The notes beneath the pieces are model-generated. The model worked only from the letters and a program-made list of their open reading frames with translations, was not told the origin of the DNA and searched no databases. Source: Phaeobacter gallaeciensis DSM 26640 (GTDB lineage: Bacteria; Pseudomonadota; Alphaproteobacteria; Rhodobacterales; Rhodobacteraceae). From it: a DNA stretch of 64,000 nucleotides. The stretch is from NCBI RefSeq assembly GCF_000511385.1, contig NC_023137.1, positions 681,501 to 745,500 of the forward strand, given 5' to 3'. Numbering within the stretch: the first letter of the stretch is position 1; each line of letters opens with the position of its first letter. Both the position numbers and the translations under genes were made by a program. This document shows, in pieces, positions 6,677 to 22,684 of this stretch.

Positions 6677-6696
6677 GACCGCTGAAGTCTCTGAAA

Positions 6697-6745: not shown

Positions 6746-7441
6746 TCAGGTACGCGCGGCTTCAAAGGCGCTCCAGGCTTTTTCAAAGGCGTCGAAGTCG
6801 AAGCCTTCCTTACGGGCGGGATCCAGCACGAGCTTTTCAGTCTCCAGCAGTTTGCGGATGGCCGCCTCTAGCTGCGGCAGCACTGCGGACGGGATCACAA
6901 CTGCGCCGTGCCGGTCGGCATGAACCAGATCGCCGTCTTTGATCTTGAGGCCAAATACCGTGACCGGTGTGCCGATTTCTTTCACATGAACAAACCCATG
7001 CGACGGGCCAATAGATCCGGCAACGACTGGGAAACCTTCCGGCAGGTCGCCAAGATCCCGCATGACGCCGTTGGTTAGCGCGCCGCTAACGCCGAAGCCT
7101 TTGTGAACAGTTGTGTTGATTTCACCCCAATAGGCACCAATGCAATTGGGGTAATCAACATCCTCAACCACGGTCACGGCTGGGCGTGGGCCGCTGGCCA
7201 TATGGCGGTAATAATCCATCCGCCGCGCTTTGATCACCTCAGGAGGTTCGGTGGGGGGCGCCAGCGCCGAGATCTTGGCGGTCCGCGCATAGCCGACCAT
7301 CGCGCCTGCCTCGGGGGCTGAGGCCAGCATGGTACCGCGGGTGAAGGCGTTGAAGCCGCGTTTGCCTTCGGCGACCTCAATCGCGTTGCAGACGGTGGGT
7401 GTGTCGACCTGGCGTAGCAGGTCCAGAAGTGTGGGGGTCAT
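6746..7441 (-). CDS. RraA-family protein (HMG/CHA aldolase-like)
   Basis: The 231-residue protein has the family motif NGVMRDLGDLPEGFPV with the conserved Arg128-Asp129 pair. Members of this fold are either metal-dependent aldolases for 4-hydroxy-2-oxo acids (oxaloacetate decarboxylase side activity) or inhibitors of RNase E. The length and the catabolic neighbourhood favour an aldolase or decarboxylase, but the substrate is unknown. It is the last gene of the long leftward run and overlaps the hydrolase gene by four bases. Confidence 0.8.
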   Translation of the reverse strand: MTPTLLDLLRQVDTPTVCNAIEVAEGKRGFNAFTRGTMLASAPEAGAMVGYARTAKISALAPPTEPPEVIKARRMDYYRHMASGPRPAVTVVEDVDYPNCIGAYWGEINTTVHKGFGVSGALTNGVMRDLGDLPEGFPVVAGSIGPSHGFVHVKEIGTPVTVFGLKIKDGDLVHADRHGAVVIPSAVLPQLEAAIRKLLETEKLVLDPARKEGFDFDAFEKAWSAFEAART

Positions 7442-8133
7442 AGGCTCTCCAGCCAGCGGCGCAGGGCGGCTGTGGTTTGGTCAGGGGTTTCCAGCGTCGG
7501 CAGATGACCGGCACCATCGAGGATTTCCAGATGGCTCTGCGGCAGAAGGTCATGCATCAGCTCATGGCGGTGCGGCGGGCAGAGCGCATCATCGCGCCCG
7601 CACAACACGAGCGCCGGACGATCGAACTGACGCAGCGTGTCACATTGGTCTGGTCGGTCCCGCAGGGCTTTGGACTGGTTGACGAACACCTGCGGCCCAA
7701 GATCCATGGCCATTGCCATGCAAAGATCAAGGATATTGCCCCGGTTGGGGCCGTCCGTCAGGTAATTGGGCTTCATCTCATCACGCATGACCTGCCGCAG
7801 CCGCCCTTCTTGGGCGGCGTCAATCTGTGGCTGGCGGCGGGCTTTCACCTCGGCGGTTTCAGCGCGTGGATTGGTGTCCATCAGGGCCGCCCCGAGAACA
7901 CGTTCAGGGGCTTGGCGGATCAGCTCCATCGCCAGAATGCCGCCCATGGACAGGCCCGCAACGGCAAACCGTTTTGGTGCGATGTCCAGAATCCCGGTTG
8001 CGAGGGCTGCCATGGTGTCATCCTGTCCCATGGGGGCGGTCATGATGGGGTATCTCCCCGACAGGGTGGCGATTTGCGGCTGAAACAACCGCGCATCACA
8101 CATCATCCCGGGGAGCAGCAGAAGTGGTGTCAC
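7438..8133 (-). CDS. Alpha/beta hydrolase
   Basis: The 231-residue protein shows the alpha/beta-hydrolase pattern: LLLLPGMMCD (oxyanion region), the nucleophile elbow GLSMGG with Ser62, an acidic residue in GRDDALCPP near 183 and the histidine in GAGHLPTLE near 211. It would cleave a small ester, lactone or thioester in the cytosol. It overlaps both neighbours by four bases, so it is translationally coupled to the MetE-like and RraA-like genes. Confidence 0.82.
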   Translation of the reverse strand: MTPLLLLPGMMCDARLFQPQIATLSGRYPIMTAPMGQDDTMAALATGILDIAPKRFAVAGLSMGGILAMELIRQAPERVLGAALMDTNPRAETAEVKARRQPQIDAAQEGRLRQVMRDEMKPNYLTDGPNRGNILDLCMAMAMDLGPQVFVNQSKALRDRPDQCDTLRQFDRPALVLCGRDDALCPPHRHELMHDLLPQSHLEILDGAGHLPTLETPDQTTAALRRWLESL

Positions 8134-9257
8134 GCGCGCCCCGCTGCAAGTTTTGCGCCTTCGGACAGGGCAGAGAGCTTGGCATAGGCAATTTCAGGAT
8201 CAACCGCGCCAAACCCTGCAAAGGTGCCAAAGCCGCAGTCTGATCCGGCGATCACCCGGTCCTGACCCAGAATATCGGTAAACCGCTCAATACGCTGGGC
8301 GACGACCTCTGGGTGTTCGACAAAATTGGTGGTGGTATCAACCACGCCGGGCACCAAAACCTTATCATCTGGGATTTGCGCCTTGTTGTCACGGAACACG
8401 GTCCATTCATGGGCATGCCGGGGGTTGGAGGTTTCAAACAGCACATAGCGCGCCTTGGTCGCCATCAGCGGGGCAAAGACCTTGTCCATGGAGATATCGC
8501 AGCAATGTGGCCCCTCGTAGTTGCCCCAGCAGATATGCACGCGAACCTTTTCAGCTGGCACGTCGGACAGCGCGTAATTCAGCGCTTCTACGTGCATCTG
8601 GGCGACTTTCACAAACTCATCATCGCTCAGATCCGTGAACAGCATGTGACGTGACAGCGCCAGATCCGGGCAATCCAGTTGCAGGTCAAGCCCGGCGCCA
8701 ACGATGGTTTCATATTCGGTCTTCATCGCATCGGCGAGGGCGGCCAGATAGGCTTCGCGCGTCGAATAGTAGTCGTTTTGTAGAAACAGTGAGATGACAC
8801 CAGGGGAGGCGGCATTCATGAAACCACGGGTGGCACCATGTTCTGTCATCGCGGATTTCAGATTGGCGATATCTTTTTCCAGCTCTCCCTGCCCTTTGGA
8901 GCGGACCTCTCCGGTACACATAGGGCGGGCATATTGCGGGGTGCCTCCATCATCCGCGAGCCGTTTCAAAAAACCGGGAAACATCTTCAGATCAGCAGGC
9001 GCGTTGCGCGGGCTGTCGCCGGAAAACCCGGTGTAGCGGTCCTTCACATAGGTCGCATAGGAAATCTTGGAGGTCTCACCGTCGCTGACGATATCAACCC
9101 CGGCCTCGACCTGTTTTTTGACCGTATCGCTGACTGCAGTGCGCATGCAGGCATCGAACTCGGCCTGATCAAAGGGCTGTTCCCGTTCACGGGCGAAGAT
9201 GAAATCGACCACTTCCTGAGAGCGGGGAAGGGAGCCTACGTGGGTTGTTTTGACCAT
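8130..9257 (-). CDS. MetE C-terminal-like (cobalamin-independent methionine synthase II family) protein
   Basis: The 375-residue protein begins TTHVGSLPRS, typical of the UROD/MetE-like barrel, and keeps candidate zinc ligands in RVHICWGNYEGPH and AGSDCGFG. Full MetE is about 750 residues; this corresponds to the catalytic half only. Such short proteins include methyl or alkyl transferases to thiols and epoxyalkane-coenzyme M transferase relatives. It sits between a bicupin gene and a hydrolase, which suggests action on a catabolic intermediate rather than methionine synthesis, but that is inference. Confidence 0.8.
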   Translation of the reverse strand: MVKTTHVGSLPRSQEVVDFIFAREREQPFDQAEFDACMRTAVSDTVKKQVEAGVDIVSDGETSKISYATYVKDRYTGFSGDSPRNAPADLKMFPGFLKRLADDGGTPQYARPMCTGEVRSKGQGELEKDIANLKSAMTEHGATRGFMNAASPGVISLFLQNDYYSTREAYLAALADAMKTEYETIVGAGLDLQLDCPDLALSRHMLFTDLSDDEFVKVAQMHVEALNYALSDVPAEKVRVHICWGNYEGPHCCDISMDKVFAPLMATKARYVLFETSNPRHAHEWTVFRDNKAQIPDDKVLVPGVVDTTTNFVEHPEVVAQRIERFTDILGQDRVIAGSDCGFGTFAGFGAVDPEIAYAKLSALSEGAKLAAGRA

Positions 9258-9288
9258 ATGCCTGTTGTCCTCAAATCAGATCGGTGAC

Positions 9289-9318
9289 GCGGGGGCGCCG
9301 CCCTGAAGTCGCCCCCGC
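9289..9318. repeat. GC-rich intergenic hairpin
   Basis: GCGGGGGCG (9289-9297) pairs with CGCCCCCGC (9310-9318) between the bicupin and MetE-like genes. It has no T run and could be an RNA-stabilising or processing hairpin within the operon. Confidence 0.5.
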
Positions 9319-9349
9319 GCTACGATTGTTATGTGCGGGGGCGGTTGTT

Positions 9350-10312
9350 TTAGCTGCCGGTCCAGGTGGCGCCGGCCGGATCATCGGTGGCGGTGACGCG
9401 GTAGAGGCTGGCCTCGCCGGTCATGGAGGGCTCCAGGCTGTGTGTCTCACCCGCCTTGATCAATGCAGTATCGCCGGGATTGAGGGTTGTTTCTCCCCCC
9501 TCCCAACACAGCCGCCAGTGGCCGCGTACCGGCATCAACACAGTGTGCTGGTCATGGCTGTGCATGTCAGCAGGCAGGGAACCGCGGGTCAGGAAATCGA
9601 CGCAGAAGCCGGGTTTGTCCTTGAGGAGTGCATCTGCACCGATCACCTTAGCCGGTTTATCACGGGCCAGCGCCATCAAATCCCAGTAGCGGGCGACGTA
9701 GTCACGCACCACGGCCTCGACCGGGACTTCAGGGTATTGCTTCAGCTCTTCCTCGCTCAGCAACGGCATCGGGTTGACGCCCTCGGGCAGGGTGATGCCC
9801 TGCTTGCTGTCGTAAAGGACGCCATTTTCTCCCAGTACCAGCCCGTGATCGCGGGCGTCCTCAATTACCTGCGGGGCCCATGTGACGCCGCCCCCGGCAT
9901 CATCACCGCCGAGAACGGCCATGATCATTCCGTAGTCGGTGCCGATGTTCTCAAACCCGCGGAAGATGCCGGTGGGGATGTTGAAGATATCACCTTCCTC
10001 GGCGATGAACTCACCGGCATCCCCATGACGGCCCCAGAAAAAGCGCCAACGCCCCTTCAGCACGAAGAAAACTTCTGCGGTGGTGTGACTGTGCAGGGAG
10101 TTGCGGCACTTCGGCGGTTGGCCAGCGGCACCGATGTTGAACCCGATCTGGTCGGTGATATGGACATGCTGATCCGGGCTTTCGGAAACGCCGCCGCCGA
10201 TGATGGTGAAGTTTTCCTTCTGATCGGAGCCGGGTGTGTGGGCGTCGATGAAGGCGGTTTTGCAGGGACGCAATTCACCGTAGCGGACGATGCGGTCTTG
10301 AATAGTGCTCAT
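9350..10312 (-). CDS. Bicupin protein
   Basis: The 320-residue protein holds two cupin repeats. The first has LHSHTTAEVFFVLKG near residue 72 and the second MHSHDQHTVLMPVRG near 250, each with the His-X-His pair that binds a metal. Gentisate dioxygenase-like enzymes and some isomerases share this layout. I cannot tell whether it is a dioxygenase. It lies 92 bases before the MetE-like gene and 154 bases after an NTF2-fold gene on the same strand. Confidence 0.8.
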   Translation of the reverse strand: MSTIQDRIVRYGELRPCKTAFIDAHTPGSDQKENFTIIGGGVSESPDQHVHITDQIGFNIGAAGQPPKCRNSLHSHTTAEVFFVLKGRWRFFWGRHGDAGEFIAEEGDIFNIPTGIFRGFENIGTDYGMIMAVLGGDDAGGGVTWAPQVIEDARDHGLVLGENGVLYDSKQGITLPEGVNPMPLLSEEELKQYPEVPVEAVVRDYVARYWDLMALARDKPAKVIGADALLKDKPGFCVDFLTRGSLPADMHSHDQHTVLMPVRGHWRLCWEGGETTLNPGDTALIKAGETHSLEPSMTGEASLYRVTATDDPAGATWTGS

Positions 10313-10466
10313 GTGTTTTCTCCGTTTTGGATATTGGGTTTGACAGATCTCAAACCCGCATCCCGGGAGGGCGATTGTTCAATCGGCGCGCCCGCAGGGA
10401 GGCGCGGTGCGTATGATAGCGCCGCGCGGCCTGAGTGGCGTTCAGATATGAGGTTTGCGCATTCAC

Positions 10467-11441
10467 TCAGAGATCGCCTGTCTGTAGCAGGATCTGTTTC
10501 CAGACCGATGTTTCATCAAACAGCGTGTATTCCCGGCGCAGGCCCCAGGGACCGAATTCGGCATGGCTGGCCCCCAATATGAACACTTCGGTGCCGGTTG
10601 GCTTGCCAAAGGCGCCCCAGCCGTCGTGCTTGCCATGCAGCGTCCAGCGCAGTGCGGCGCGAGGGGGCATCATGGGGTCGTCGCGGCCAATCTGGTGCTC
10701 GATAGTGAATTTGGCGTTTGGGAAGGACGCACGCAGGCCCATCCAGAACCGATCCACAGGGCCAAAACTGTGGCCGGTAGCACCGCCGGGATATTCTGAC
10801 TGAACCGCACGGTCGTATTCACTTTCGATCGTACGCATGTCGGCGTTCATGATCCGGGTTAGGATGTCCGCGTATTTCTGCCCCCATTCATTGTCATTTC
10901 CCCGCCCCTTATAGGGGCCAGGCTGATCGGTGGCTGGTGTGTAGGGCTGTTGGCAAGCATCGGGCCCGCCCTCACGCGCGATCAGGTCACGTGCATAATC
11001 TTTGGGGTCCCAGCCCATCTGCTGCACGATCGCGCTTTGGTCGCGTATCAGCCATTCATCATTGATCTGATTGTCGATCGCATGGCAGTCGGCGATAATT
11101 CGGTACGTGAGCTTCTTGCCTGTTGCTTTGCCATAGACGCCGTCGCCCAGATGGGTTGCCGTGGACAACAGGCGGTGGGACGAGAGCATGCCCTCCTCAG
11201 GGGTACCGGACCAGATCACGTCTTCCCCCAACAGGGTGCGGTCTGGGAATTCAGCCAGAGTGGCCATCGTGGCTGCAATGACCCCTTCGTTACCGGTGAC
11301 CACCGACGCTGGCGAGCGCACAACGATCTCGGGCGCGTAGTAGTCATGCAATGTGGAGATGCCCCGATCTTCCCATATCTCTTTTGTGATGCCAATAATG
11401 TAGTCGGGGAAGTCTTTGAATTTGGGATCAAAACCCTTCAT
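10467..11441 (-). CDS. Tandem NTF2/SnoaL-fold protein (ester-cyclase-like), paralogue A
   Basis: The 324-residue protein reads as two NTF2-fold domains: an N-terminal one (about 10-140, with SnoaL-like YAPEIVVRSPASVVTGNEG) and a second (about 175-320, with GATGHSFGPVDRFWMGLR). The ATG at 11441 was chosen over the open frame upstream because MKGFDPKF is a natural start. It overlaps the end of the LacI regulator gene by 14 bases. NTF2-fold enzymes catalyse cyclisation, dehydration, isomerisation or lactone chemistry; the reaction here is unknown. It is one of four such proteins in this locus. Confidence 0.75.
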   Translation of the reverse strand: MKGFDPKFKDFPDYIIGITKEIWEDRGISTLHDYYAPEIVVRSPASVVTGNEGVIAATMATLAEFPDRTLLGEDVIWSGTPEEGMLSSHRLLSTATHLGDGVYGKATGKKLTYRIIADCHAIDNQINDEWLIRDQSAIVQQMGWDPKDYARDLIAREGGPDACQQPYTPATDQPGPYKGRGNDNEWGQKYADILTRIMNADMRTIESEYDRAVQSEYPGGATGHSFGPVDRFWMGLRASFPNAKFTIEHQIGRDDPMMPPRAALRWTLHGKHDGWGAFGKPTGTEVFILGASHAEFGPWGLRREYTLFDETSVWKQILLQTGDL

Positions 11442-12456
11442 TTTTCCATCCTTTTGGAATGCGGGCAGAGCCGCGAACAATCAGTGGGCCATCAATGGCG
11501 ATGCGGCGCGGCCCGGTGGAGCTGCCCTCGATTTCATCAAGCAGGATATCAACCGTGGCCGAAACCATGCGGTTTGCAGGTTGCCGAACGGTGGTCATGT
11601 CGTAGGCGGGCCAGGCGGCGGTGGGCACATCGTCATATCCCACAACGGAGACATCTCCGGGCACCGACAGCCCCAGTTCCGAGCGCAGCACATCCATCAC
11701 CGCAAAGGCCATGTGATCATTGCCGACAAACACTGCATCCGGTCGGTCGTGTGCGAACATCTGGCGGGTGGCTTCGGCGGCGGTTTCCATCTTGAAGTTC
11801 CCGACGCCACGGGCATGCAGTGTCAGCCCATCTTCGGCCAGACGCTCGCAGAACCCCGTTTCGCGGTCCCGCTGGGTGGAGGCTCCTTCCCAGCCTGCAA
11901 TATAGCCGATCTTGCGATGTCCTGTGGCCAGCAGGAAATCAGCGACCTTGCGTCCGCCTGCATAGTTGTCCGAGGTGACGGCGGACATGCCCGGGTCGTC
12001 TTGAGATCGGTTGAACAGCACCATCGGTACACCGGCGGCGCGGCAGCGATCTGAAAGTTCCGACGACATCGCAACGGAGGCTGCGATAATACCGTCAACT
12101 TGATAGTCAAGGATTTCCTCTATCACGTTATCAATACTGGTGGCGGTATTGGGAGCCATGAACATCAATACGTGGTAGCCACGCTCCTGAAGGGCATTGG
12201 AGAGTTTTTCGATGGCTTCGGGATAGAAGTGGTTTTCCAGATAAGCCACCACCAGCCCGATGATGCGCGACCGGCCGGAGACCATCGCGCGGGCCAGAGA
12301 ATTTGGCCGATACCCCAGGCTTTCGGCGGCGGCACGCACCTTGTCCACGGTTTTTTTCGATGCGGAAGCTCCGGGGGTGAAGACCCGGCTGACAGCGGAC
12401 TGCGAGACACCCGCCAGCCTTGCCACATCGGCAGAGGTGACTTTCGCGGCGGTCAT
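11428..12456 (-). CDS. LacI-family transcriptional regulator
   Basis: The 342-residue protein has a LacI helix-turn-helix at residues 4-25 (SADVARLAGVSQSAVSRVF), a hinge with YRPNSLARAMVSG, and a periplasmic-binding-protein-like effector domain. I chose the ATG at 12456 because it overlaps the SDR stop as ATGA; a start four codons earlier is possible. It is encoded inside the catabolic operon. The two TTTGCA-N6-TGCAAA operators at 20714-20788, before the transporter genes, are its likely targets. The effector is probably the substrate or an early product. Confidence 0.9.
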   Translation of the reverse strand: MTAAKVTSADVARLAGVSQSAVSRVFTPGASASKKTVDKVRAAAESLGYRPNSLARAMVSGRSRIIGLVVAYLENHFYPEAIEKLSNALQERGYHVLMFMAPNTATSIDNVIEEILDYQVDGIIAASVAMSSELSDRCRAAGVPMVLFNRSQDDPGMSAVTSDNYAGGRKVADFLLATGHRKIGYIAGWEGASTQRDRETGFCERLAEDGLTLHARGVGNFKMETAAEATRQMFAHDRPDAVFVGNDHMAFAVMDVLRSELGLSVPGDVSVVGYDDVPTAAWPAYDMTTVRQPANRMVSATVDILLDEIEGSSTGPRRIAIDGPLIVRGSARIPKGWKNEGF

Positions 12457-13229
12457 TCGGCGGTCCACCCACCATCGATCATCAGCGCGGTGCCGGTGAT
12501 CAGGGCCGAGGCGTCAGAGGCCAAGTAAACCACGCCGCCCATGATATCCTCGACCTCGCCGATGCGACCCAATTGGATTTTGCTTTCGATCCAGGCCCTG
12601 CGTTCAGGGCGATCAAACGTGGACTGCGTGAGGGGCGTCACAATGAAGGTTGGGCAGATGGTATTCACCCGGATACCCGATTTCCCCCATTCGATGGCCA
12701 TGGATTTGGTGAAACCCTCAACCGCGTGTTTGGTTGCAGAATACACGGCCCGGTCCAGACCGCCGACCTTGGCCATCTGGCTGCTGATGTTGATCAATGA
12801 TCCTGGCTTTTTGGCAGCGATGAGTCCTTTTGCCACCACCTGTGTCAGGAAATATGCGCCCTTGATGTTCAAGTCGATCACCGCGTCGAAATCACCTTCA
12901 GTGGTATCTCTGGCAGGGCTATGGCGCGCCAGTCCGGCGGAGTTTACCAGAATGTCAAAGGCGCCGTTTTGGGTGACACACTCATCGATGCTGGCCTGAG
13001 TGGCGGTGATGTCAGCAACGTCAAGAACCATCGCCTCTGCCTGCATATCGGCGGCCTGCATCTCCGTAACCAGAGCCTCCAGCGGCTCAATCCGGCGCGC
13101 TGCAATGGTGACATGGGCACCGGCCTCTCCCAGAGCCACAGCACAGGCGCGTCCGATGCCGGAGCTGGCTCCGGTCACCAGCGCGCGTTTGCCATCAAGA
13201 CGGAAGGAAGGGGTGCGGGGCAGGGTCAC
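12453..13229 (-). CDS. Short-chain dehydrogenase/reductase
   Basis: The 258-residue classical SDR has the cofactor motif TGASSGIG (19-26), NSAG, and the catalytic Tyr-X-X-X-Lys in YSATK near residue 161. It starts with GTG at 13229, which overlaps the preceding stop as GTGA, and overlaps the LacI gene by four bases. Family members in sugar operons oxidise a secondary alcohol with NAD(P). The Arg-rich ARRIEPL after strand 2 hints at NADP use. Confidence 0.88.
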   Translation of the reverse strand: MTLPRTPSFRLDGKRALVTGASSGIGRACAVALGEAGAHVTIAARRIEPLEALVTEMQAADMQAEAMVLDVADITATQASIDECVTQNGAFDILVNSAGLARHSPARDTTEGDFDAVIDLNIKGAYFLTQVVAKGLIAAKKPGSLINISSQMAKVGGLDRAVYSATKHAVEGFTKSMAIEWGKSGIRVNTICPTFIVTPLTQSTFDRPERRAWIESKIQLGRIGEVEDIMGGVVYLASDASALITGTALMIDGGWTAE

Positions 13230-14275
13230 TGGTGGTCTCCAGGTGTTGGGATCGGGCCCAGATTGCGGGCCTTGTTGAACTCGCGCAGACGCGCCATCAC
13301 GTCAACGCCAAGCTGTGAATAGACGTCAAGAAGGTCGACCAGAACCCAGTTTTCGCGGATCAACCCAGACTCCAGCCGCCAGAAATCAAGACTGCGCAGA
13401 TCGATCATCTTGCCGGAGGGCGCTAGCCCCAGCCAGCCATCGGCTGAGAGGCTCTGCCGCATGTTTGGCCAGCCGGTGACCGCAGCGTAATCGCCATCGC
13501 CAAAGAAATGGAAATCCAGCGTCTCATCCTTGGCGCCACGGTCAGGCATCGCATTCAGAAAGGGGATCTGATGCCAGTTGCGAAAGCCCGAAACGCCGCG
13601 TGCGGTGCCAATCCCTGCCGGGCCGTACCAGTTAAAACGGGGATGCCAGAAACGCTCCATCTCCATCACCTCCGGGCCACCCTGCGCCGGGTGGCGCGTC
13701 AGATGGGCCAGCATGTCCATGATATGATCACAGGACACCGTCGCTTGATCCCGGTCCCATGGTCCGGGGACAAATCCATCCTGCGTGGCGGGGCCGGGGA
13801 CAAAAAACTCCCGCCCGAGGGAGGGCGCCATGGGCCAGGCACCGGCCTGCATCATCAGCTCCGGGATGTCCCAGATTGCCTGCATCTCGACGATTTTTCC
13901 ATCTGAGATGCGATAGAACTCGTGATAGCGCATATGGGCAATATGCCCGGTTGGGGGAATGTCCAGCCAAGGTGCACGAAAGGTCCCGACATAATGTCCG
14001 CCCATTCCCAGCCAGTGATCCCCCTGTGGTGTCTCACCGGCCATCACAATCCAGTCTCGCCGCTCAAGATCAGGCATCGCTGCCAGCAACGGCGCATAGG
14101 CCTGATCATAGAGAGCATCTGCACCAGTCAGATCGCCTAAGGGATGGCAGAGATGGATCTGCGTGTCCGCCGCAAAAACTTTGGCCATGGCACTGCGCAC
14201 CGGCCCGGCTGCGAAATCACGCATTGCCGTGAACAGGGGCTTTAACAGGGCCTTATGGGCGCTTGGGTAATCCAT
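13226..14275 (-). CDS. Tandem NTF2/SnoaL-fold protein, paralogue B
   Basis: The 349-residue protein contains two NTF2-fold units. The first ends in DIPPTGHIAHMRYHEFYRI and SDGKIVEMQAIWD; the second in DLRSLDFWRL and ENWVLVDLLDVYSQLGVDV. The shared PPTGK-like turn, the DGKI strand and the W-x-x-x-DLL strand mark it as a relative of the proteins at 15672 and 20820. The ATG at 14275 was chosen because the frame upstream is unlike the family. Its neighbours are the SDR (overlap) and the HisD-like gene. A catalytic role is likely but not defined. Confidence 0.78.
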   Translation of the reverse strand: MDYPSAHKALLKPLFTAMRDFAAGPVRSAMAKVFAADTQIHLCHPLGDLTGADALYDQAYAPLLAAMPDLERRDWIVMAGETPQGDHWLGMGGHYVGTFRAPWLDIPPTGHIAHMRYHEFYRISDGKIVEMQAIWDIPELMMQAGAWPMAPSLGREFFVPGPATQDGFVPGPWDRDQATVSCDHIMDMLAHLTRHPAQGGPEVMEMERFWHPRFNWYGPAGIGTARGVSGFRNWHQIPFLNAMPDRGAKDETLDFHFFGDGDYAAVTGWPNMRQSLSADGWLGLAPSGKMIDLRSLDFWRLESGLIRENWVLVDLLDVYSQLGVDVMARLREFNKARNLGPIPTPGDHQ

Positions 14276-14302
14276 TTCTGGTCCAGACAGGGGAGGGAGT
14301 GC

Positions 14303-14323
14303 CGGGCAGGAAAATCCTGCCCG
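14303..14323. repeat. Intercistronic hairpin before paralogue B
   Basis: CGGGCAGGA (14303-14311) pairs perfectly with TCCTGCCCG (14315-14323) around a three-base loop. It lies between the HisD-like and NTF2 genes. There is no T run, so RNA stability or processing is more likely than termination. Confidence 0.5.
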
Positions 14324-14337
14324 CACACAGAGTGTGT

Positions 14338-15666: not shown

Positions 15667-15671
15667 CGTAT

Positions 15672-16208
15672 TTATCCTTTGTTGTCGGGTCGCGGCGGTT
15701 GCTTCTCGCCACGATCAAATGCTTCCCAGCCTTCGCCGTTGAAGAGGTCGACGCCGAGCTGGGCGGCGACATGGGCAAAATCGACATTGACCCAATTGTC
15801 CACGATCTTGCCGTCAAAGACTTTCCAGAAGTCCATGTAACGGATTTCAATCCGCTTGCCGGTGGGCGCGATGCCGAGGAAGGTGCCGCTGTGGGTGGCT
15901 TCCTGCCGACCAAAGGCCGCAGCCCATTCGCCCATATAAAGACGGGCTTCGTCGATGCAGACCTTGTCGGAGAAGGCGGCCTGAAACGGGCGCTGCCAGT
16001 TGTCCTGGAATTCCTTCAGCCCGGTCTTGGTGCCGCAGCCCTGATTGCCCATCCAGCGAAACCCTTCGGAGAAAAACTCGCCGATATCGCTGATGCGGTG
16101 GTCGTTCAGCCCGTCCACCATCTCTTCGATGACGCGGCGGGTGTCTTCAGTTTTGCTCATATCCGTGTGTTTTGTCAGCACGGCTTGTTCTGGGCGAGAG
16201 CCTTTCAT
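15672..16208 (-). CDS. Single NTF2/SnoaL-fold protein, paralogue C
   Basis: The 178-residue product carries one NTF2-fold domain with [17 protein letters not shown] and [23 protein letters not shown], closely matching the second half of paralogue B. The ATG at 16208 has AAGGAT seven bases upstream; a later start at MSKTEDTRR is possible. It lies five bases before the HisD-like gene, so the two are probably made together. It may be a half-size relative from which the tandem proteins arose, or a partner subunit. Confidence 0.75.
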
Positions 16209-16230
16209 GGGTTTTATCCTTTTCAGTCTA

Positions 16231-16285
16231 CCAAGGGAAAATCTGTGTTGGGGGGAGGAGATCCCGCACACAGAAAATCCCTTGG
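16231..16285. repeat. Long imperfect inverted repeat between transporter and catabolic genes
   Basis: CCAAGGGA (16231-16238) pairs with TCCCTTGG (16278-16285), and TCTGTGT (16242-16248) pairs with ACACAGA (16268-16274), with a small AAA/AAA internal loop. In the leftward transcript this hairpin sits between the permease and paralogue C. It could limit read-through or stabilise the upstream transporter message. Confidence 0.6.
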
Positions 16286-16338
16286 CATCCTGTTCAGCGC
16301 CGGATGGCGACCGAGGGCGTTATGACGGAAAGATGCGC

Positions 16339-17223
16339 TCATCCTTTGACTGCACCTGCGGTGAGGCCGCTCACGATCTGGCGCTGGAAGAACATCACCA
16401 GCACAAACAGCGGGGCGGTGGCAGAGACCACGGCGGCCACGGCAAACATTACGTTGCCTTCGGTCTGGGTGGTGCCCATGAAGCTAGCAATCTTGGGGAT
16501 CATGGTCTGATTGTCCTTGCTCAGCAGCATCGAGGTGACGGCAAAATCGTTGTAGGCCAGCAGGAAGGAGAACAGGCCGGTGGTGATGACGCCGGGCCAC
16601 ATCACCGGGATGATCACATGGCGGAAGGCTTGAAACTGTGTGCAGCCATCGACCTTGGCACTTTCGTCCAGTTCCTTGGGGATCGACTGGAAAAAAGAGT
16701 GCAGCATCCACAAGGTGAAGGGCTGGTTGATCGCCACCAGAACGATGACCGTGGTCGCCAAATGCCCCCAGAGGTTCCATTCAAAAAACGGCAGCAGGTA
16801 GCCCGCAACCAGAGTGATCGGCGGCATCGCGCGGAAGATCAGCGCAGTGATAAGCAGCCAGAAAGTATAGCGGTAACCGGAGCGGGACAGGGCATAGCCG
16901 CCCAATGTGCCGATGGTCAGCGAGGTCATGACGACAAAGATACAGACCAATGTGGTGTTGATGCCTGCTTTCCAGAATTCCTCCTGGATCCACGCCCCTT
17001 CATAACCGGCGCCGGTCAAGGATGAGCCGTGGGTTGCCTTGGTCAGTGTGCCGGTCAGCGCATTTGTCCAATCCGCGATGGAGAAGAAATCCAGCTCAAC
17101 CTTGAAAGAGCCCCAGAAGGTCCAGAGAAACGGGAAGGCTGCGAGAATGAGCCAGAACAGGATGAAACCATTGACCAGCAGGCGCAGGCCCAATGGGCGG
17201 TGAGTGGCGGCGGAACTGCTCAT
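16339..17223 (-). CDS. Sugar-type ABC transporter permease (MalG-like)
   Basis: The 294-residue integral membrane protein has about six membrane segments and the cytoplasmic EAA loop (ESAKVDGCTQFQAFRHVIIP) that docks to the ATPase. It belongs to the carbohydrate-uptake MalG family. It follows the MalF-like gene by one base. The 130 bases after it hold the inverted repeat at 16231-16285. Confidence 0.9.
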   Translation of the reverse strand: MSSSAATHRPLGLRLLVNGFILFWLILAAFPFLWTFWGSFKVELDFFSIADWTNALTGTLTKATHGSSLTGAGYEGAWIQEEFWKAGINTTLVCIFVVMTSLTIGTLGGYALSRSGYRYTFWLLITALIFRAMPPITLVAGYLLPFFEWNLWGHLATTVIVLVAINQPFTLWMLHSFFQSIPKELDESAKVDGCTQFQAFRHVIIPVMWPGVITTGLFSFLLAYNDFAVTSMLLSKDNQTMIPKIASFMGTTQTEGNVMFAVAAVVSATAPLFVLVMFFQRQIVSGLTAGAVKG

Positions 17224-17224
17224 G

Positions 17225-18250
17225 TTAAGTCTTCCCCTTGAAATCTTGCCAGGTCCGGATCAGCACCGGGGTCAGCAGTACGGCAACGCCGAGAATGGTC
17301 AGGACGGATGTGGTCGCGGCGGAGGACAGAAGCCGGGTTTCACCGCCCATATCGTTGAAGATGATCCAGCTGAAAGATGTCGCATGGGCCTCGGCGTTGA
17401 AGCCGACAATCGGTTCGAAGACGCGGAAATTGTCCATCAGCTGAATGAGTGCCACAAAGGTCACCAGCGGCATCAGATGTGGCACCACAACGTAGCGGAC
17501 GCGCTGCCAGCGGGTGGCGCCGTCGATCTGCGCGCTTTCCAATTGGTCCTGCGGTAGGGTCTGCAAACCAGCGTAGAAGACCACGAAGGCAAATGGAGCC
17601 GAGTGCCAGACGCCATAGACGATCAGCATGATCCAGGTCAGTCCGGTCGAGGCCTTGAGCGATAAGGTTGGATCATCGGTCAGATATTGCAGCGCCGACC
17701 CAAGAACACCGCGGCTGTCGATCATCCAGAACAGGATGAGAGAGCCAATCAGCGGTGTCACGATCATGGGCAGCAGTGAGAAGAAGATCACCAGCCCTTT
17801 GAGGTGCCGGTTGAGCGAGTTCACGGCAAGCGCGATCATCAGCCCCAGCACGATCAACAGCGGCGTCACGGTAAAGGTGTAGGTCAGCGTGAAACCCATC
17901 GCGCGGTAAAAAGGCAGGTCGCTGATTTCGCCGAAGAAAGCGCCGATGCTGTCGGTGCTGCGCCAGGCTTCTGCCACCTCGGACACAGCCAGATGGCCAC
18001 GATCAAAATAGATCTGCAGACCTACAAATTTGCCTAAAGGCTCCGCATCGCGCAGGGCGCGGGTGGCCTCCTGGTCGATGGTGGTTTCCTCTTTGCAGCC
18101 GAAGGGACCGCAGTTTTCAACCGTCACCAGAACGGCGTCATGGGGGGTGTGAACGGACTGGAACAACACCGACACGATGGGCAGCGCGATGAACAAGAGC
18201 ATCGCAAGCCCGGTGGGCAGAAAGAACCAGAAAAAGGTGCGGTGTTTCAT
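17225..18250 (-). CDS. Sugar-type ABC transporter permease (MalF-like) with periplasmic insertion
   Basis: The 341-residue permease has an N-terminal membrane helix (about 8-30), then a hydrophilic loop of about 75 residues, five further helices and the EAA motif (ESAQIDGATRWQRVRYVVVP). The first periplasmic loop contains a cysteine pair, CGPFGC, which could form a disulfide; most MalF/UgpA-type permeases of this size have a short loop there. It forms the channel with the MalG-like partner. Confidence 0.9.
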   Translation of the reverse strand: MKHRTFFWFFLPTGLAMLLFIALPIVSVLFQSVHTPHDAVLVTVENCGPFGCKEETTIDQEATRALRDAEPLGKFVGLQIYFDRGHLAVSEVAEAWRSTDSIGAFFGEISDLPFYRAMGFTLTYTFTVTPLLIVLGLMIALAVNSLNRHLKGLVIFFSLLPMIVTPLIGSLILFWMIDSRGVLGSALQYLTDDPTLSLKASTGLTWIMLIVYGVWHSAPFAFVVFYAGLQTLPQDQLESAQIDGATRWQRVRYVVVPHLMPLVTFVALIQLMDNFRVFEPIVGFNAEAHATSFSWIIFNDMGGETRLLSSAATTSVLTILGVAVLLTPVLIRTWQDFKGKT

Positions 18251-18321
18251 GACAAACCGATGTCCAGAGTTCAGGTGGTGGTGGCAGAGGGGAGGCTCCC
18301 CTCTGCCGGTTGGGCCTCAAC

Positions 18322-19548
18322 TTAGTTGAGGAACCCTTTTTCCTTGGCGGCAGCGGTATAGGCTGCTTCTGCATCAGCAAGAGCCTGTTCGGCGCTTTCC
18401 TTGCCCTGCATGAAATCGCTCAGCTCAGCACCCAGCGCAGTATGCAGCAGACCCATGTAGGGCAGCATCGGGTAGGGGCTGGTGCTCATCTGCACGGCCT
18501 CAAAGACACCCTGAGCGGCATCGGTCGGCTCATAACCGTCGATCAACCAGACCGCCTGAGGGGCAGTTTCTTCGTTCAGCATCGCGGGACGGATGCCGTG
18601 GGTCAGGGCGACAAAAGTCGCTTCGGCTTCGGCATCGGGAATGTTCTTGGCAACTGTCCAGCCATCCCACCACAGGGTCGAGGCCGCATCAGAGCCACCC
18701 GCCACGGTCAGTGGGCCGGAGATCGCCATGTGATCCTTCACCTCCTGCACAACACCATCGGCATCGGCCAGAGTTGCAGCGCGGCTGCCCCACATGTTCA
18801 TCAGCGCGACATTGCCAGCACGGAATTCGGCGTTGGTGGCGTTGGAATCATGGGTCAGGAAGTCGGGGTTCATATATTCCGACAGTGACTTCATCATTTC
18901 CAGAGCGGCCACGCCCTGTTCATTGTTGATCGAGACCTTGGCGCTGCCCGGCTCAAAGAAGCTGCCGCCATGGCCCAGGTACATGTTGTTGAATTCCTGC
19001 GCGAGGTTCCAACCCGCCTTGTAGGCACCGCCAACCGGGTTCTCCATGAGACCCTTCTCGCGGATCATCTTGGCCGCTGCCAGCAGGTCCTCATAGCTTT
19101 TGGGGGGCTCGACACCGATCTCTTCCAGAACGTCGGCGCGATAGACCAGATGCTGGGCGTTCGCCATGAAAGCAACTGCCATGATCTTGCCATCGATGGT
19201 GATCAACTGGGTTTTCTGCAATCCGTCACCATGTTTGGCGACCAGATCGTCCAACGGACGGATGACGTCTTCGTTCATCAGGGCCACGATGGAGGAGTTG
19301 GCGATAATGGCAGACGTGTACTCCGCCGGATTGCCGGTCATGCCTGCGACGTTGATCTTCTGATGGTCTGCGGTCAGGTTGGCCTTGACCTCGCCACCGG
19401 TGCATTCCTTGGCCGCGTCGGCGACAGAATGGATGGCGGGGAATTCATTGCCAACGATGTTGACCCGCGCCGAAATCTCGCAGGCAGAACCTGCGGTCGC
19501 GGCAAGGGCCAGAACCGAGCTGGCAAGTGCGATATGTGTGAATTTCAT
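18322..19548 (-). CDS. ABC transporter substrate-binding protein (extracellular solute-binding family 1)
   Basis: The 408-residue protein starts with a Sec signal peptide (about 1-22, cleavage near SACE) and continues as a type 1 sugar-binding protein (WWDGWTVAKN, GKIMAVAFMANAQHLVYR). It captures the substrate in the periplasm. It sits 71 bases before the MalF-like permease gene and 89 bases after the ATPase gene. The ligand cannot be assigned by reading. Confidence 0.9.
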   Translation of the reverse strand: MKFTHIALASSVLALAATAGSACEISARVNIVGNEFPAIHSVADAAKECTGGEVKANLTADHQKINVAGMTGNPAEYTSAIIANSSIVALMNEDVIRPLDDLVAKHGDGLQKTQLITIDGKIMAVAFMANAQHLVYRADVLEEIGVEPPKSYEDLLAAAKMIREKGLMENPVGGAYKAGWNLAQEFNNMYLGHGGSFFEPGSAKVSINNEQGVAALEMMKSLSEYMNPDFLTHDSNATNAEFRAGNVALMNMWGSRAATLADADGVVQEVKDHMAISGPLTVAGGSDAASTLWWDGWTVAKNIPDAEAEATFVALTHGIRPAMLNEETAPQAVWLIDGYEPTDAAQGVFEAVQMSTSPYPMLPYMGLLHTALGAELSDFMQGKESAEQALADAEAAYTAAAKEKGFLN

Positions 19549-19637
19549 GGTAGTCTCCCTGTTATAGGGGGACGCCGTCCGGACAGCATCCCCATCTTTG
19601 CCCCCGTCGCATGCACGAAGGCGGCGGTGGTGGGGGA

Positions 19638-20687
19638 TTACCCCCCCAGCCGCGCACCTGTTTGTTTGTCAAACAGGTGGCAGTGATCGGTGGGCACATG
19701 GATCGACACCATATCGTCGATCTCTGCGCGGAATGTTTTGTCTGCCTTGACCGAAACCAGGACGCCGCCAATGCGGACCGTGACCATGGTTGCGTCACCC
19801 AAAAGCTCCATCGTGTAGATTGGGGCGTTGATCTGGCCGCCGCTCTCAACGACGCTGGCGTCCTCGGCGCGAAAGCCCAGTGTGACCGGACCATCCGGGC
19901 CGGACAGCCCGGCGATATCCGTGTGTTGTGCAGTGAATTGTCCGCCAGAGAGGCTGCCCTCCATCAGGTTCATCGCAGGTGAGCCGATGAAACTTGCAAC
20001 AAAAGCATTGGCGGGGCGGTCGTAGATCTCTGTCGGGCTGCCGACCTGCTGTACGACGCCTTTGTTCATGACCACCACGCGATCGGCGAGGGTCATCGCT
20101 TCGATCTGGTCGTGGGTGACATAGATTGTTGTCACGGCCAGTTCATGGCTGAGGTTTTTGATCTGCGCGCGGGTAGAGACCCGCAGCTTGGCGTCCAGGT
20201 TCGACAGTGGCTCATCCATCAAGAACACGTTTGGTTCGCGTACGATGGCCCGGGCCAATGCCACCCGCTGACGTTGACCACCGGAGAGCTCTGCCGGTTT
20301 GCGGTGCAGGAACTCATCCAGTTCAACCATGGCGCTGGCCCGTCGGACCTTCTCGTCATGGGTCTTGCTGTCAACACCGCGCACCTTCAACGGAAAGCGG
20401 ATATTTTCGTAGACATTCATATTGGGATAGAGCGCGTAGCTCTGGAACACCATGGCGACGTCCCGGTCTTTCGGCTCCAGTTCGTTGACCCGATTGCCAT
20501 CCACCAGAATGTCGCCTTCGCTGGCGCTTTCCAGCCCGGCAATCATCCGCATTGTTGTGGTCTTGCCGCAGCCCGACGGCCCCAAGAGAACCAGAAACTC
20601 CTTGTCTGCGATGGTCAGGTCGAAATTATCAACCCCGACAAAGCTGCCCCAACGCTTGCTGATATTACGCAGCTCAATCTGTGCCAT
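19638..20687 (-). CDS. Sugar-type ABC transporter ATPase (MalK/UgpC-like)
   Basis: The 349-residue ATPase has the Walker A motif GPSGCGKTTT, the signature LSGGQRQRVALARA, the Walker B region FLMDEPLSNLDAKL, the switch histidine in YVTHDQIEAMT, and a C-terminal TOBE-type domain. The ATG at 20687 (MAQIELRNIS) is the family start, although the frame is open to 20915. It is the first gene of the 14-gene leftward run and starts 27 bases downstream of the nearer LacI-type operator. Confidence 0.93.
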   Translation of the reverse strand: MAQIELRNISKRWGSFVGVDNFDLTIADKEFLVLLGPSGCGKTTTMRMIAGLESASEGDILVDGNRVNELEPKDRDVAMVFQSYALYPNMNVYENIRFPLKVRGVDSKTHDEKVRRASAMVELDEFLHRKPAELSGGQRQRVALARAIVREPNVFLMDEPLSNLDAKLRVSTRAQIKNLSHELAVTTIYVTHDQIEAMTLADRVVVMNKGVVQQVGSPTEIYDRPANAFVASFIGSPAMNLMEGSLSGGQFTAQHTDIAGLSGPDGPVTLGFRAEDASVVESGGQINAPIYTMELLGDATMVTVRIGGVLVSVKADKTFRAEIDDMVSIHVPTDHCHLFDKQTGARLGG

Positions 20688-20713
20688 GCGGGTCCGCCTC
20701 CCAGCGAAATCTA

Positions 20714-20733
20714 TTTTGCATACGATTGCAAAA
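20714..20733. promoter_or_regulatory. LacI-family operator, proximal to the leftward operon
   Basis: TTTGCA-TACGAT-TGCAAA forms an inverted repeat with a central CG step, as LacI-family regulators prefer. Its reverse complement is repeated at 20769-20788 with 19 of 20 bases identical. It lies 27 bases before the ATPase start. Confidence 0.8.
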
Positions 20734-20768
20734 AGGTTAGTCTTTGCTGCGTTAATTTGGCAAGATAA

Positions 20769-20788
20769 TTTTGCAATCGTATGCAAAT
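20769..20788. promoter_or_regulatory. LacI-family operator, proximal to the rightward operon
   Basis: TTTGCA-ATCGTA-TGCAAA is the mirror copy of the site at 20714-20733, with centres 55 bases apart. It lies 31 bases before the rightward NTF2 gene. Together the two sites could control both arms of the divergent locus. Confidence 0.8.
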
Positions 20789-20819
20789 CGGTGCCAAGCG
20801 ATTGAAAATAGGGAATGCA

Positions 20820-21821
20820 ATGGAACATCTTCAGGCAGCAAAAGCCGTTGTGCGCGCCTTCTACGCCGATCTCGACGCCCCGGAAGCGGATCTTGAGGCG
20901 GTGTTGATTCGACATACATCGCCTGATTACCTATGGCGTGGTTTTCACCCGTTTAATGAGATGACCGAGGCTGCCGAGGTTGCGCAGCAGTTCTGGACGC
21001 CACTGCGTAAAAGCCTCACTTCACTGCAGCGGCGTGAGGATATCTTCTTTGCCGGTCGCAACCAGATGGATGGTTTCCAAGGCATCTGGGTGGTGTCTAT
21101 GGGGCATTTGATGGGGCTGTTTGATGCGCCATTTGTTGGCATTCCCCCCACGGGCAAGATTGCGATGCTGCGCTATTGTGAGTTCCACCGGGTTGAAGAC
21201 GGTAAGATTGCCCAAACCGCGATGTATTTCGATCTGCCGCATCTGATGGCGCAGGCTGGTGTCACAGCCTTTCCCGGTCAGACTGCCGCGCAGTTGGTGC
21301 AGCCGGGGCCAATGACGCATGATGGCCTTTTGTTTGAGGCGCAACCAGACCACGAAGGCGAGATGACGCTGGCCGTTATCAACCGCATGATTGGTGAACT
21401 GGGGCAATGGGATAACAAGCTCAGTCTTGAAGATGAGCTACGTCAGACTTGGTGCGAGGACATGTTGTGGTGGGGGCCGACCGGGATCGGCGCGACATAT
21501 ACCGTCGCGCGTTATGCCCAGCAGCATTCCGGCCCGTTCCGCGCAGCTTTTTCTGACAGATCCAAGACCAATCATACGGCGCGCTTGGCCGAAGGCGCCT
21601 ACGGTGGCTTTGCCGGCTGGCCGAACTTTACCGCGCGTCTGACCGGTGATTTCATGGGGCGCTCGGCGACCAGTGAGCAGGGTGAATTCCGGGTGATTGA
21701 TATTTACCGGCGTAGCGGTGACAAACTTGCAGAAAACTGGATCTTCATCGATCTGCTGCATTTCTGGAAGGGGCAGGGATATGATGTTCTACAACAGCTC
21801 AGCGATGGGACCCTGGCATGA
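20820..21821 (+). CDS. Tandem NTF2/SnoaL-fold protein, paralogue D
   Basis: The 333-residue protein has two NTF2-fold domains. The first carries GIPPTGKIAMLRYCEFHRV and EDGKIAQTAMYFD, the second WWGPTGIGATYTVARYAQQH and ENWIFIDLLHFWKGQGYDV. It aligns by eye with paralogue B over its whole length. The ATG at 20820 follows AGGGA by five bases. It is the first gene of the rightward arm and overlaps the amidohydrolase by four bases (ATGA), so it probably acts with a hydrolase on a shared intermediate. Confidence 0.78.
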   Translation: MEHLQAAKAVVRAFYADLDAPEADLEAVLIRHTSPDYLWRGFHPFNEMTEAAEVAQQFWTPLRKSLTSLQRREDIFFAGRNQMDGFQGIWVVSMGHLMGLFDAPFVGIPPTGKIAMLRYCEFHRVEDGKIAQTAMYFDLPHLMAQAGVTAFPGQTAAQLVQPGPMTHDGLLFEAQPDHEGEMTLAVINRMIGELGQWDNKLSLEDELRQTWCEDMLWWGPTGIGATYTVARYAQQHSGPFRAAFSDRSKTNHTARLAEGAYGGFAGWPNFTARLTGDFMGRSATSEQGEFRVIDIYRRSGDKLAENWIFIDLLHFWKGQGYDVLQQLSDGTLA

Positions 21822-22684
21822 TTGACGCGCATCATCATCTGTGGGACCTCGCGGCGGTGCATTACCCTTGGCTGTCCGCCAAAGGTGTTTCGCGGTTCTT
21901 TGGCGACCCGAGCCCGATCCAGCGCAACTATCTGCTGCCGGAATTTCGCGCAGAGGCCGCTGCCTTGGGGATCACCGGATCTGTTCACATTCAGGTCGGT
22001 GCAGAGGATCCGCTGGCGGAGGCGAAATGGGTCCAGTCCGTCGCGGAAGCCAACCCAGGCTGGCCTTTGGTGCAGGTTGTCCATTGCGATTTGACGGCAC
22101 CGGACCTCGCACAGCAATTGGATGTCATGGCAGCGCTGCCCACAGTCCGGGGGGTGCGCCAGATCGTTGGTCGCGCGCCCGGAGAGGACGCGCAGACCGG
22201 TACCAATGCGCTATTGGATGATCCGCGCTTTCTGGAGGGTCTTTTGCAGCTTAGCGAACGAGGGCTGTCCTTCGATCTGCAGCTTATTCCAGAGTTGATG
22301 GAGAAAACCGCGCGCGTTCTGGCGCAGGCACCGCGCACAAATGTGGCCCTGTGCCATGCGGGCAGCCCCCATGATCGAAGCCCGGAAGGGCTCGGAGAGT
22401 GGAGACAGCGGCTCAGGTGGCTTTCTGATCTTCCACATGTGTGGTGCAAACTCTCAGGTCTGGGTATGTTTCAGCACCGCTGGACCGTTGAGGATTTCAG
22501 GCCGATCATTGAAACATGCCTTGATCAATTTGGCGCTGACCGTTGTATGTTTGGCTCCAACTTCCCGGTGGATAGCCTTTATTCAGATTATGAAACGCTC
22601 CTGCGCGCACATGAAAAATTGGTGCCGGACAGCCAGAGGTCGCAGGTCTTTGCTGAGACCGCAGCAGGTTTTTATAAGTTCTGA
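21818..22684 (+). CDS. Amidohydrolase-2 family protein (lactonase/PDC-hydrolase-like)
   Basis: The 288-residue protein begins MIDAHHHLWD, the metal-binding His-X-His of the amidohydrolase-2 family, and ends with FGSNFPVDSLY containing the conserved Asp. Close relatives include L-fuconolactonase and 2-pyrone-4,6-dicarboxylate hydrolase, which open lactones. Paired with an SDR and a HisD-like dehydrogenase in the same regulon, opening of a sugar-acid lactone is plausible but unproven. It overlaps the NTF2 gene by four bases. Confidence 0.85.
   Translation: MIDAHHHLWDLAAVHYPWLSAKGVSRFFGDPSPIQRNYLLPEFRAEAAALGITGSVHIQVGAEDPLAEAKWVQSVAEANPGWPLVQVVHCDLTAPDLAQQLDVMAALPTVRGVRQIVGRAPGEDAQTGTNALLDDPRFLEGLLQLSERGLSFDLQLIPELMEKTARVLAQAPRTNVALCHAGSPHDRSPEGLGEWRQRLRWLSDLPHVWCKLSGLGMFQHRWTVEDFRPIIETCLDQFGADRCMFGSNFPVDSLYSDYETLLRAHEKLVPDSQRSQVFAETAAGFYKF

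Follow-up and report, generated by a model that had tools for sequence, protein, structure and literature searches.

The question raised by a gene cluster of about 16 kb in the genome of Phaeobacter gallaeciensis DSM 26640 is what a sugar-type ATP-binding cassette (ABC) transporter, a HisD-family dehydrogenase, several SnoaL-type proteins, half a methionine synthase and an RraA-like aldolase should do together next to a LacI-type regulator. The cluster consists of 16 genes between positions 6746 and 22684 of the window, that is the whole stretch of 64,000 nucleotides analysed here (NC_023137.1, positions 681,501 to 745,500), and the families were assigned with Pfam and NCBIfam profiles. A preliminary description, made from the letters alone, had named the families of these genes, and all 16 are in place and have Pfam support. 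We think it reasonably probable that the locus is a single regulon under LacI control by which a small and polar compound resembling a carbohydrate is taken up and broken down, with pyruvate formed at the end, and the anatomy of the locus and its conserved operators are well supported by the comparison of sequences. A described pathway with this set of genes, of which the preliminary description knew none, was not found in the open-licence literature either, a body of work outside which most subscription papers and preprints fall.

The genes form two divergent arms, a leftward one of 14 genes from malK to rraA and a rightward one of sno3 and amh, and two predicted LacI operators are located between malK and sno3, one at 20715–20732, 27 bp ahead of malK (start at 20687), and one at 20770–20787, 32 bp upstream of the likely start of sno3. 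Both are perfect matches to TTTGCANNCGNNTGCAAA and form 18-bp palindromes 55 bp apart. Four further matches to this pattern in the window have three mismatches each, and since the total of six is no higher than in shuffled sequences (mean 4.1, with 24 of 100 shuffles reaching six) only the two perfect sites are counted. The operator core TGCANNCGNNTGCA is present in all 64 divergent sno3–malK regions of the related loci, doubled at a spacing of 54–56 bp in 51 of them, and 115 of its 128 matches in the 1,515,894 bases of related loci scanned fall inside these regions. The arrangement of two arms around one operator pair, read earlier from the window, is in this way also seen in relatives. A wider LacI regulon was considered and rejected: at one mismatch or less only two other sites are found in the genome, both of them near 2.78 Mb, of which one is a perfect match and one adjoins another LacI gene. 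At two mismatches or less there are 13 operator-like sites per strand, the reversed control pattern giving 6. The presumptive regulator is encoded by lacI (11428–12456, minus strand) within the leftward arm, where it overlaps sdr and sno4. That the 16 genes are one LacI-controlled unit is supported by the conserved operators and the conserved gene order. LacI bound at the two sites about 55 bp apart would repress both arms, probably by looping, and would be released by a ligand or a pathway intermediate.

The related loci were collected by scanning species genomes with sno2, and the best 80 of at least 572 relatives were compared, which being chosen by one gene are the closest relatives; there are several short contigs among them, and L049 and L050 seem to be one and the same contig. 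All 16 genes are present in 28 of these loci, 26 of them with the order of the window, and at least 15 genes, amh aside, in 37, which is the outcome of a search for co-occurrence that had been suggested beforehand. The commonest genes are sno4 (75 loci), lacI (74), hisD-A and malK (71 each), sno1 (70), the cupin gene (69) and sdr (67). Less constant, with some contigs short, are sno3 (65), metE (61), rraA (56), the hydrolase gene (54) and the amidohydrolase gene, which is found in 38 loci and is therefore classed as optional. At the genus level, sno2 and HisD-A are both present in six of seven genomes and both missing in the seventh. Among 398 genomes of the phylum, HisD-A was found in 31, a close MetE-half in 16, all of them with HisD-A, and sno2 in 19, 18 of them with HisD-A; the thresholds were set by us at 500 bits or more for a close MetE-half (10 more genomes have more distant relatives) and 220 bits or more for sno2, and as one family (f1) accounts for 14 of the 16 MetE-half genomes the hypergeometric values overstate independence. 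Two genomes outside this family (G007 and G285) contain HisD-A, a short-chain dehydrogenase (SDR), LacI, the cupin, the hydrolase, MetE, several SnoaL proteins and an HpcH aldolase, with genes for an SSF-type transporter and a TonB receptor in place of the ABC transporter. G007, in which MetE is 76% and the amidohydrolase 40% identical to the proteins of the window, is the most telling of the HpcH-type clusters.

The dehydrogenase HisD-A (14338–15666, minus strand; PF00815, 440.8 bits) could from its name point to histidine biosynthesis, or from its closest structure to the dihydroxypropanesulfonate (DHPS) pathway. Its score of 426 bits lies above the TIGR00069 hisD cut-off of 244, it reaches 391.6 bits against HpsN 8v35, and it is 47–50% identical to proteins of the GRYSH type. 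HpsN, in the part of PMC11382572 dealing with its reaction, turns a CH2OH group into a carboxylate by a 4-electron oxidation and recognises the sulfonate by His126 in the motif GRY[AS]H, and the DHPS pathway as outlined in a section of PMC11131964 also includes an SDR, HpsO. We nevertheless regard it as extremely improbable that the locus belongs to either of these pathways, which were both rejected. HisD-A has GKFPM where HpsN has GRY[AS]H, and the position of the sulfonate-binding histidine is Met in all 69 ungapped rows of the 71 aligned, while the zinc ligands and the equivalents of Glu318, His319, Asp352 and Lys353 (HpsN numbering) are invariant in all 71. The same genome encodes a separate GRYSH protein as well as a separate HisD (L083; GLASY, Asp-Tyr). 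No enzyme cleaving a C–S bond is present among the Pfam results for the 16 genes, although no search aimed at such genes was made. In a tree of 68 rows, 67 of them different as the window was entered twice, the window-type proteins form a branch of 45 rows with support 98/95 and GK[FY]P[ML] in all 45, apart from the 7 HisD-type rows; 12 GRY[SA]H rows constitute the sister branch, with the motif in 12 of 12, and 4 rows have GRYP[IL], the program warning of long branches that meet, so that at levels deeper than the branch of the window the order is uncertain. HisD-A thus shares with HpsN (8v35 and 8wwe) the family, the zinc ligands, the Glu-His catalytic pair and the Asp352-Lys353 equivalents, but differs by its separate branch, by Met or Leu in place of His126 and by other gene neighbours. 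Judged by motif and branch, it is a further type of HisD-family dehydrogenase, neither a histidinol dehydrogenase nor HpsN. By analogy with both of these enzymes it would be expected to oxidise a CH2OH group next to a zinc-chelating hydroxyl to a carboxylate.

The group with GRYP[IL] is a fourth one in the HisD family (L116:14009, L117:4900–5900, L118:4649 and L182); in L116, L117 and L118 it is encoded in one cluster with a window-type HisD, in L117 and L118 additionally with an amidase gene. Window-type HisD is found near NAD(P) transhydrogenase genes on the plasmids L134, L166 and L164, and the HisD module is followed by nadA, the L-aspartate oxidase gene and nadC in L135 (14659–18132) and L165 (10435–13902).

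When the relatives are compared by gene content, the locus is a fusion of two separable modules, here called A and B. Module A comprises HisD-A, an SDR and an aldolase of the pyruvate type, to which LacI and a tripartite ATP-independent periplasmic (TRAP) transporter are often added, and is found in Antarctobacter, Sulfitobacter, Tritonibacter and Alloyangia; in Labrenzia it is present together with the cupin, the hydrolase and RraA, adjoining a separate block of ABC transporter, LacI and ester cyclase genes. Module B consists of the ABC transporter and several SnoaL genes. In the archaeon Halobellus limi it occurs with a MetE-half and five SnoaL genes, and in Vibrio pelagius with a MesD-type synthase further off. 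A fused locus without metE and amh is present in Paracoccus alcaliphilus. The single catabolic locus of the preliminary description is thereby kept as one regulated unit, but not as one indivisible pathway, since the two modules occur apart.

In module A the SDR (12453–13229, minus strand) is similar to gluconate 5-dehydrogenase and KduD with scores under the cut-offs, and an SDR gene lies within 3.5 kb of the window-type HisD in 91 of 101 fetched loci that have this HisD. It would oxidise, or epimerise, the neighbouring carbinol, and HisD-A and the SDR together would convert a CH2OH-CHOH end to a 2-oxo acid, in the way that HpsN followed by sulfolactate dehydrogenase acts on DHPS. The RraA-like class II aldolase (rraA, 6746–7441, minus strand) scores 59.6 bits against PF03737, over a gathering score of 24.5, and G125, R128 and D129, forming GxxRD, which we take to be the RraA motif, are kept in all four relatives compared. 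Of the same 101 loci, 60 have only RraA near the HisD, 11 have only HpcH/HpaI, 1 has both and 29 have neither, so that 72 have at least one of the two. Six clusters outside the window's family that contain the cupin and the hydrolase (L116, L117 and L118 of family f49, L121 of f53, L124 of f23 and L125 of f40) all have HpcH by Pfam and none has RraA; also outside that family, RraA is kept in Roseibium and Labrenzia, and neither aldolase is found in L052 and L141, the latter ending at the hydrolase. The two aldolases belong to families of different fold, and as one replaces the other in the same role the last step should be a pyruvate aldol cleavage, which is moderately supported by these comparisons and agrees with the aldolase step placed at the end by the preliminary description. 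The five HpcH proteins scanned are GarL/HpaI-like with scores below the cut-offs, and RraA reaches 29.9 of the 304.5 bits of the LigK equivalog; the locus thus resembles the known HpcH/HpaI and RraA/HMG-CHA pyruvate aldolases in family, but because its enzymes score under the curated equivalog cut-offs a different substrate is likely. RraA would then cleave a 4-hydroxy-2-oxo acid to pyruvate and a second carbonyl compound.

The minimal module A that is present on several plasmids, with TRAP, HisD-A, SDR and either HpcH/HpaI or RraA, might also be taken to point to a sugar acid or polyol, 3-deoxy or branched, as the core substrate. Such a compound, for example an isosaccharinic acid, would end in CH2OH-CHOH-CH2-C(OH), and its terminal diol would be converted to a 2-oxo acid by HisD-A and SDR before cleavage by the aldolase. 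The GarL/HpaI-like character of the HpcH proteins, under cut-offs as it is, is in line with this. The SnoaL proteins, the MetE-half and the cupin are left unexplained by such a substrate, and Marinovum has TRAP, HisD-A and SDR but no aldolase in the stretch fetched; we hold this alternative to be unlikely.

The MetE-half in module B (metE, 8130–9257, minus strand; PF01717, 52.8 bits) corresponds to the catalytic domain of the cobalamin-independent methionine synthase and overlaps abh. It is 97% identical to a protein of Phaeobacter piscinae and 95% identical to one of P. inhibens, being the ortholog of PGA1_c27430. The zinc ligands H241, C243, E275 and C341 are all kept in nine of ten matches compared, L156 having Pro in place of Glu (the overlapping L125 and L142 represent a single gene). 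A transfer of methyl or alkyl groups, as proposed in the preliminary description, is plausible since these ligands are kept. Like the core methionine synthases MesA–MesD, the MetE-half is a catalytic half lacking the folate domain and has a His-Cys-Glu-Cys zinc site; it differs in being encoded in a LacI-controlled catabolic locus, and no DUF1852 partner (MesX) is present among the Pfam matches of the 16 genes. MesA–MesD are described in PMC7857596, the main text of which does not mention Phaeobacter. A methyltransferase gene (PF13649) is located between the cupin gene and metE in 12 of the 80 loci, for example L037:14995–15594, and the MetE-half of Ruegeria sp. ANG-R (P0080) bears the evidently wrong name "enterotoxin" in public records.

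The P. inhibens gene has been studied as "mes-like". As told in the sections of PMC12366255 on this gene, its deletion left the shortening of the lag phase by dimethylsulfoniopropionate (DMSP) in place, it was downregulated 15 min after addition of DMSP, and mes-like was put forward as a possible cause of the low residual growth of a bmt mutant without methionine, which allows it a minor part in making methionine. The primers for the knockout flanks in that study match the window, with 20 bases exact in the cupin gene and with 2 mismatches in rraA, indicating that P. inhibens has the same gene with the same neighbours. In the portion of PMC12478193 concerned with this homolog, methionine synthesis by it in P. 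inhibens is doubted, and P. inhibens with mtgCDE mutated is a methionine auxotroph despite the MetE homolog. A search for the neighbouring P. inhibens locus tags gave no further mention in the open-licence literature.

These reports bear on two other explanations. The first is that the MetE-half is a mere reserve methionine synthase, used for instance at cobalamin shortage, with unrelated neighbours. Such a role is proposed as possible for marine homologs of core MetE in the same portion of PMC12478193, the residual growth of the bmt mutant (PMC12366255, as above) could be explained by it, and part of the loci are without MetE. We find it very unlikely, as HisD-A accompanies a close MetE-half in all 16 genomes, albeit 14 of them in one family, metE overlaps abh, a MetE-half is found beside SnoaL genes also in Halobellus, G007 and G285, and the auxotrophy of the mtgCDE mutant in PMC12478193 arose with the homolog in place. 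The second is that module B demethylates an N- or S-methylated compound, the MetE-half methylating homocysteine while the remainder is oxidised. The kept zinc ligands would suit this, as would the five SnoaL genes and ABC transporter with the MetE-half in Halobellus limi and the module of V. pelagius, where the SnoaL/ABC block adjoins sarcosine oxidase and purU. The Vibrio neighbours may however be an independent glycine-betaine set, the synthase beside DUF1852 having the MesD arrangement; MetE was not found in 19 of the 80 loci, some of which are cut short, and the mes-like mutant and the fall in expression described in those sections of PMC12366255 speak against it, and this possibility too is an improbable one. 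The V. pelagius region (L161:11365–32984) contains in a row the SnoaL/ABC block, sarcosine oxidase, purU, L-serine ammonia-lyase and the methionine synthase with DUF1852, and the other V. pelagius strain has no serine lyase at the corresponding place. This synthase was rejected as a counterpart of the window's MetE-half, as it adjoins DUF1852 and gave no match to window metE, though only 150 residues were covered.

The other enzymes of module B are four SnoaL/NTF2 genes, a bicupin, a hydrolase and the optional amidohydrolase. The SnoaL genes carry seven SnoaL-type domains, two each in sno2 (13226–14326, minus strand, probably starting at ATG 14275), sno3 (20781–21821, plus strand) and sno4 (10467–11441, minus strand) and one in sno1 (15672–16208, minus strand, the open reading frame being open to 16271 with the probable start at ATG 16208). 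For sno3 a start at ATG 20820 is more likely than at 20781, which falls within operator 2. All four genes match Pfam SnoaL (58.6–74.9 bits, over a gathering score of 28.4) as the polyketide cyclases do, but here the domains are found in a catabolic operon, seven in four genes. The bicupin (9350–10312, minus strand; PF07883) has kept H74, H76 and E80, with Arg118 at the usual fourth-ligand position, in the window and in nine of nine relatives; we take the cupin metal motif to include a fourth His ligand as a rule. The alpha/beta hydrolase (abh, 7438–8133, minus strand) has the enol-lactonases PcaDC and PcaD as nearest models, each below cut-off, and its Ser-Asp-His triad is kept in eight of eight relatives compared. 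The amidohydrolase (amh, 21818–22684, plus strand; PF04909, 129.6 bits) is an Amidohydro_2 protein, fuconolactonase-like, with the metal residues kept in the two homologs compared, which are one gene. The preliminary description had a lactone as the first product, and this found no support: HpsN makes a carboxylate from CH2OH (PMC11382572, in the part cited), and the amidohydrolase reaches 117 of the 400 bits of the L-fucono-1,5-lactonase NCBIfam equivalog, far below the cut-off, and is optional. A link to a sulfatase was considered for family f53, in which two of three genomes have such a gene at the position compared.

The uptake genes are malG (16339–17223) and malF/ugpA (17225–18250), both PF00528, the gene sbp for the substrate-binding protein (18322–19548; PF13416) and malK/ugpC (19638–20687; PF00005), all on the minus strand; the reading frame of the last is open to 20915, and the product scores 454.6 bits against the UgpC model, over the cut-off of 432. 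The locus shares the binding protein, MalF, MalG, the UgpC-type ATPase, LacI and the paired operators with CUT1-type sugar ABC operons, but differs from these as no glycosidase or sugar kinase is present among the 16 genes by Pfam. In the 68 loci with a single binding protein, the products of the genes between 16339 and 19548 fall into three identity classes (mean identity of MalF 77, 66 and 43%), across which HisD (85–87%) and MalK (82–83%) are nearly constant. An extra SnoaL gene is found in 8 of the 17 loci of the window's class against 3 of the 51 others (Fisher p 0.0004, the loci not being independent). The specificity of uptake may in this way change over a constant enzyme core, and three classes over such a core fit related conjugates of one core molecule.

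A family of conjugates would also suit a mycosporine-like amino acid or a gadusol-type core as substrate. In this core a CH2OH group is attached to a tertiary C-OH, and there are an O-methyl group and amino-acid substituents as well. Chemically the locus would fit: HisD-A would give a tertiary hydroxy acid, the MetE-half would remove the methyl group, the bicupin would cleave the reductone ring, the hydrolase and the SnoaL proteins would set amino acids free or bring about ring opening, and finally RraA would split a product like 4-carboxy-4-hydroxy-2-oxoadipate (CHA) into pyruvate and oxaloacetate. The fold matches of the bicupin include 3-hydroxyanthranilate, quercetin and salicylate dioxygenases, but all are weak (template modelling scores 0.40–0.49, root-mean-square deviation at least 9 Å), vicilins and oxalate decarboxylases match equally, and the model itself has a mean predicted local distance difference test score of 68.4 with a poor N-terminal part. 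LigK, the CHA aldolase, belongs to the RraA family and is matched at 3.8e-7, but by bit score the RraA of the window is not close to it. Neighbours that would handle serine or sarcosine are found in Vibrio and family f53, with a serine dehydratase near SnoaL genes in V. europaeus, in one of two V. pelagius plasmids and in three f53 genomes, though the second V. pelagius plasmid has none there. No locus is directly linked to these compounds, the minimal module of HisD-A, SDR, HpcH and TRAP lacks cupin and MetE, and the MetE-half may not remove O-methyl groups. Such a substrate is accordingly quite doubtful in our view, and we give a low probability to the idea, drawn from the chemical fit, that mycosporine-type sunscreens (gadusol core), or a comparable class of algal conjugates, have here their first catabolic pathway. 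If it were true, a HisD-family dehydrogenase of a new type would act together with a set of NTF2-fold enzymes and a demethylase of the MetE type in dismantling the core to pyruvate, and an exchangeable cassette of binding protein and permeases would select the conjugate to be imported.

For a regulon that takes up and degrades a small, polar, carbohydrate-like compound, the order of events would be import by the ABC transporter, stripping or opening of the compound by module B (the SnoaL-type proteins, the MetE-half, the hydrolase and, if present, the amidohydrolase), and then the two oxidations and the aldol cleavage of module A. Several points weigh against it. The pathway is read from sequence, the 80 loci were picked by one gene and represent the nearest relatives only, and modules A and B are found apart and need not act on one molecule. 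Neither aldolase is present in the stretch in 29 of the 101 HisD-A loci, which short contigs do not wholly explain; examples are L119, L123, L126–L128, L134, L166–L170 and L052, a metagenome-assembled genome of Thiotrichaceae with cupin and metE. On two rhizobial plasmids HisD-A has a transhydrogenase as neighbour, but neither an SDR within 3.5 kb nor an aldolase, and in L121 the SDR match is weak (28%), below the SDR threshold used for the 101 loci. The cupin is without the usual fourth His ligand, and the position of Asp121 of SnoaL, which we take to be the catalytic residue, is Val161 in sno1, the one gene aligned.

The leftward arm is compact, with four 4-base overlaps and with the widest gaps 154 bp (10313–10466) and 130 bp (at the sno1 start at 16208), as the earlier statement that most of its genes overlap or lie within about 155 bases had it. 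A hairpin at 6694–6734 on the minus strand, 3' of rraA, is the likely terminator of this arm (minimum free energy -26.4 kcal/mol, z -5.94); none of 200 shuffles folds as low, and terminator-like sites are found there on both strands, the total for the region being 23 against 14.7 expected. Two intergenic RNAs on the minus strand also fold better than shuffled sequences, 10320–10460 before the cupin gene (z -4.3) and 9258–9349 before metE (z -2.1), and are possible attenuators. The promoter scan was uninformative, with 5 matches against 5.7 expected. The flanking two-component and methyl-accepting chemotaxis protein (MCP) genes were rejected as members of the locus, since the response regulator is found in 1, the kinase in 4 and the MCP in none of the 80 loci, the kinase matches having 72% identity in one locus and 26–33% in three.

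The locus of about 16 kb is kept by many marine Rhodobacterales including the model P. inhibens, so that the compound it acts on is probably widespread in the sea. Several of the enzyme names, hisD, ester cyclase and methionine synthase among them, may mislead. Because P. inhibens can be manipulated genetically and has already been mutated in one of these genes, as reported in the sections of PMC12366255 cited, a further class of the HisD family and a catabolic use of SnoaL proteins would be testable at once.

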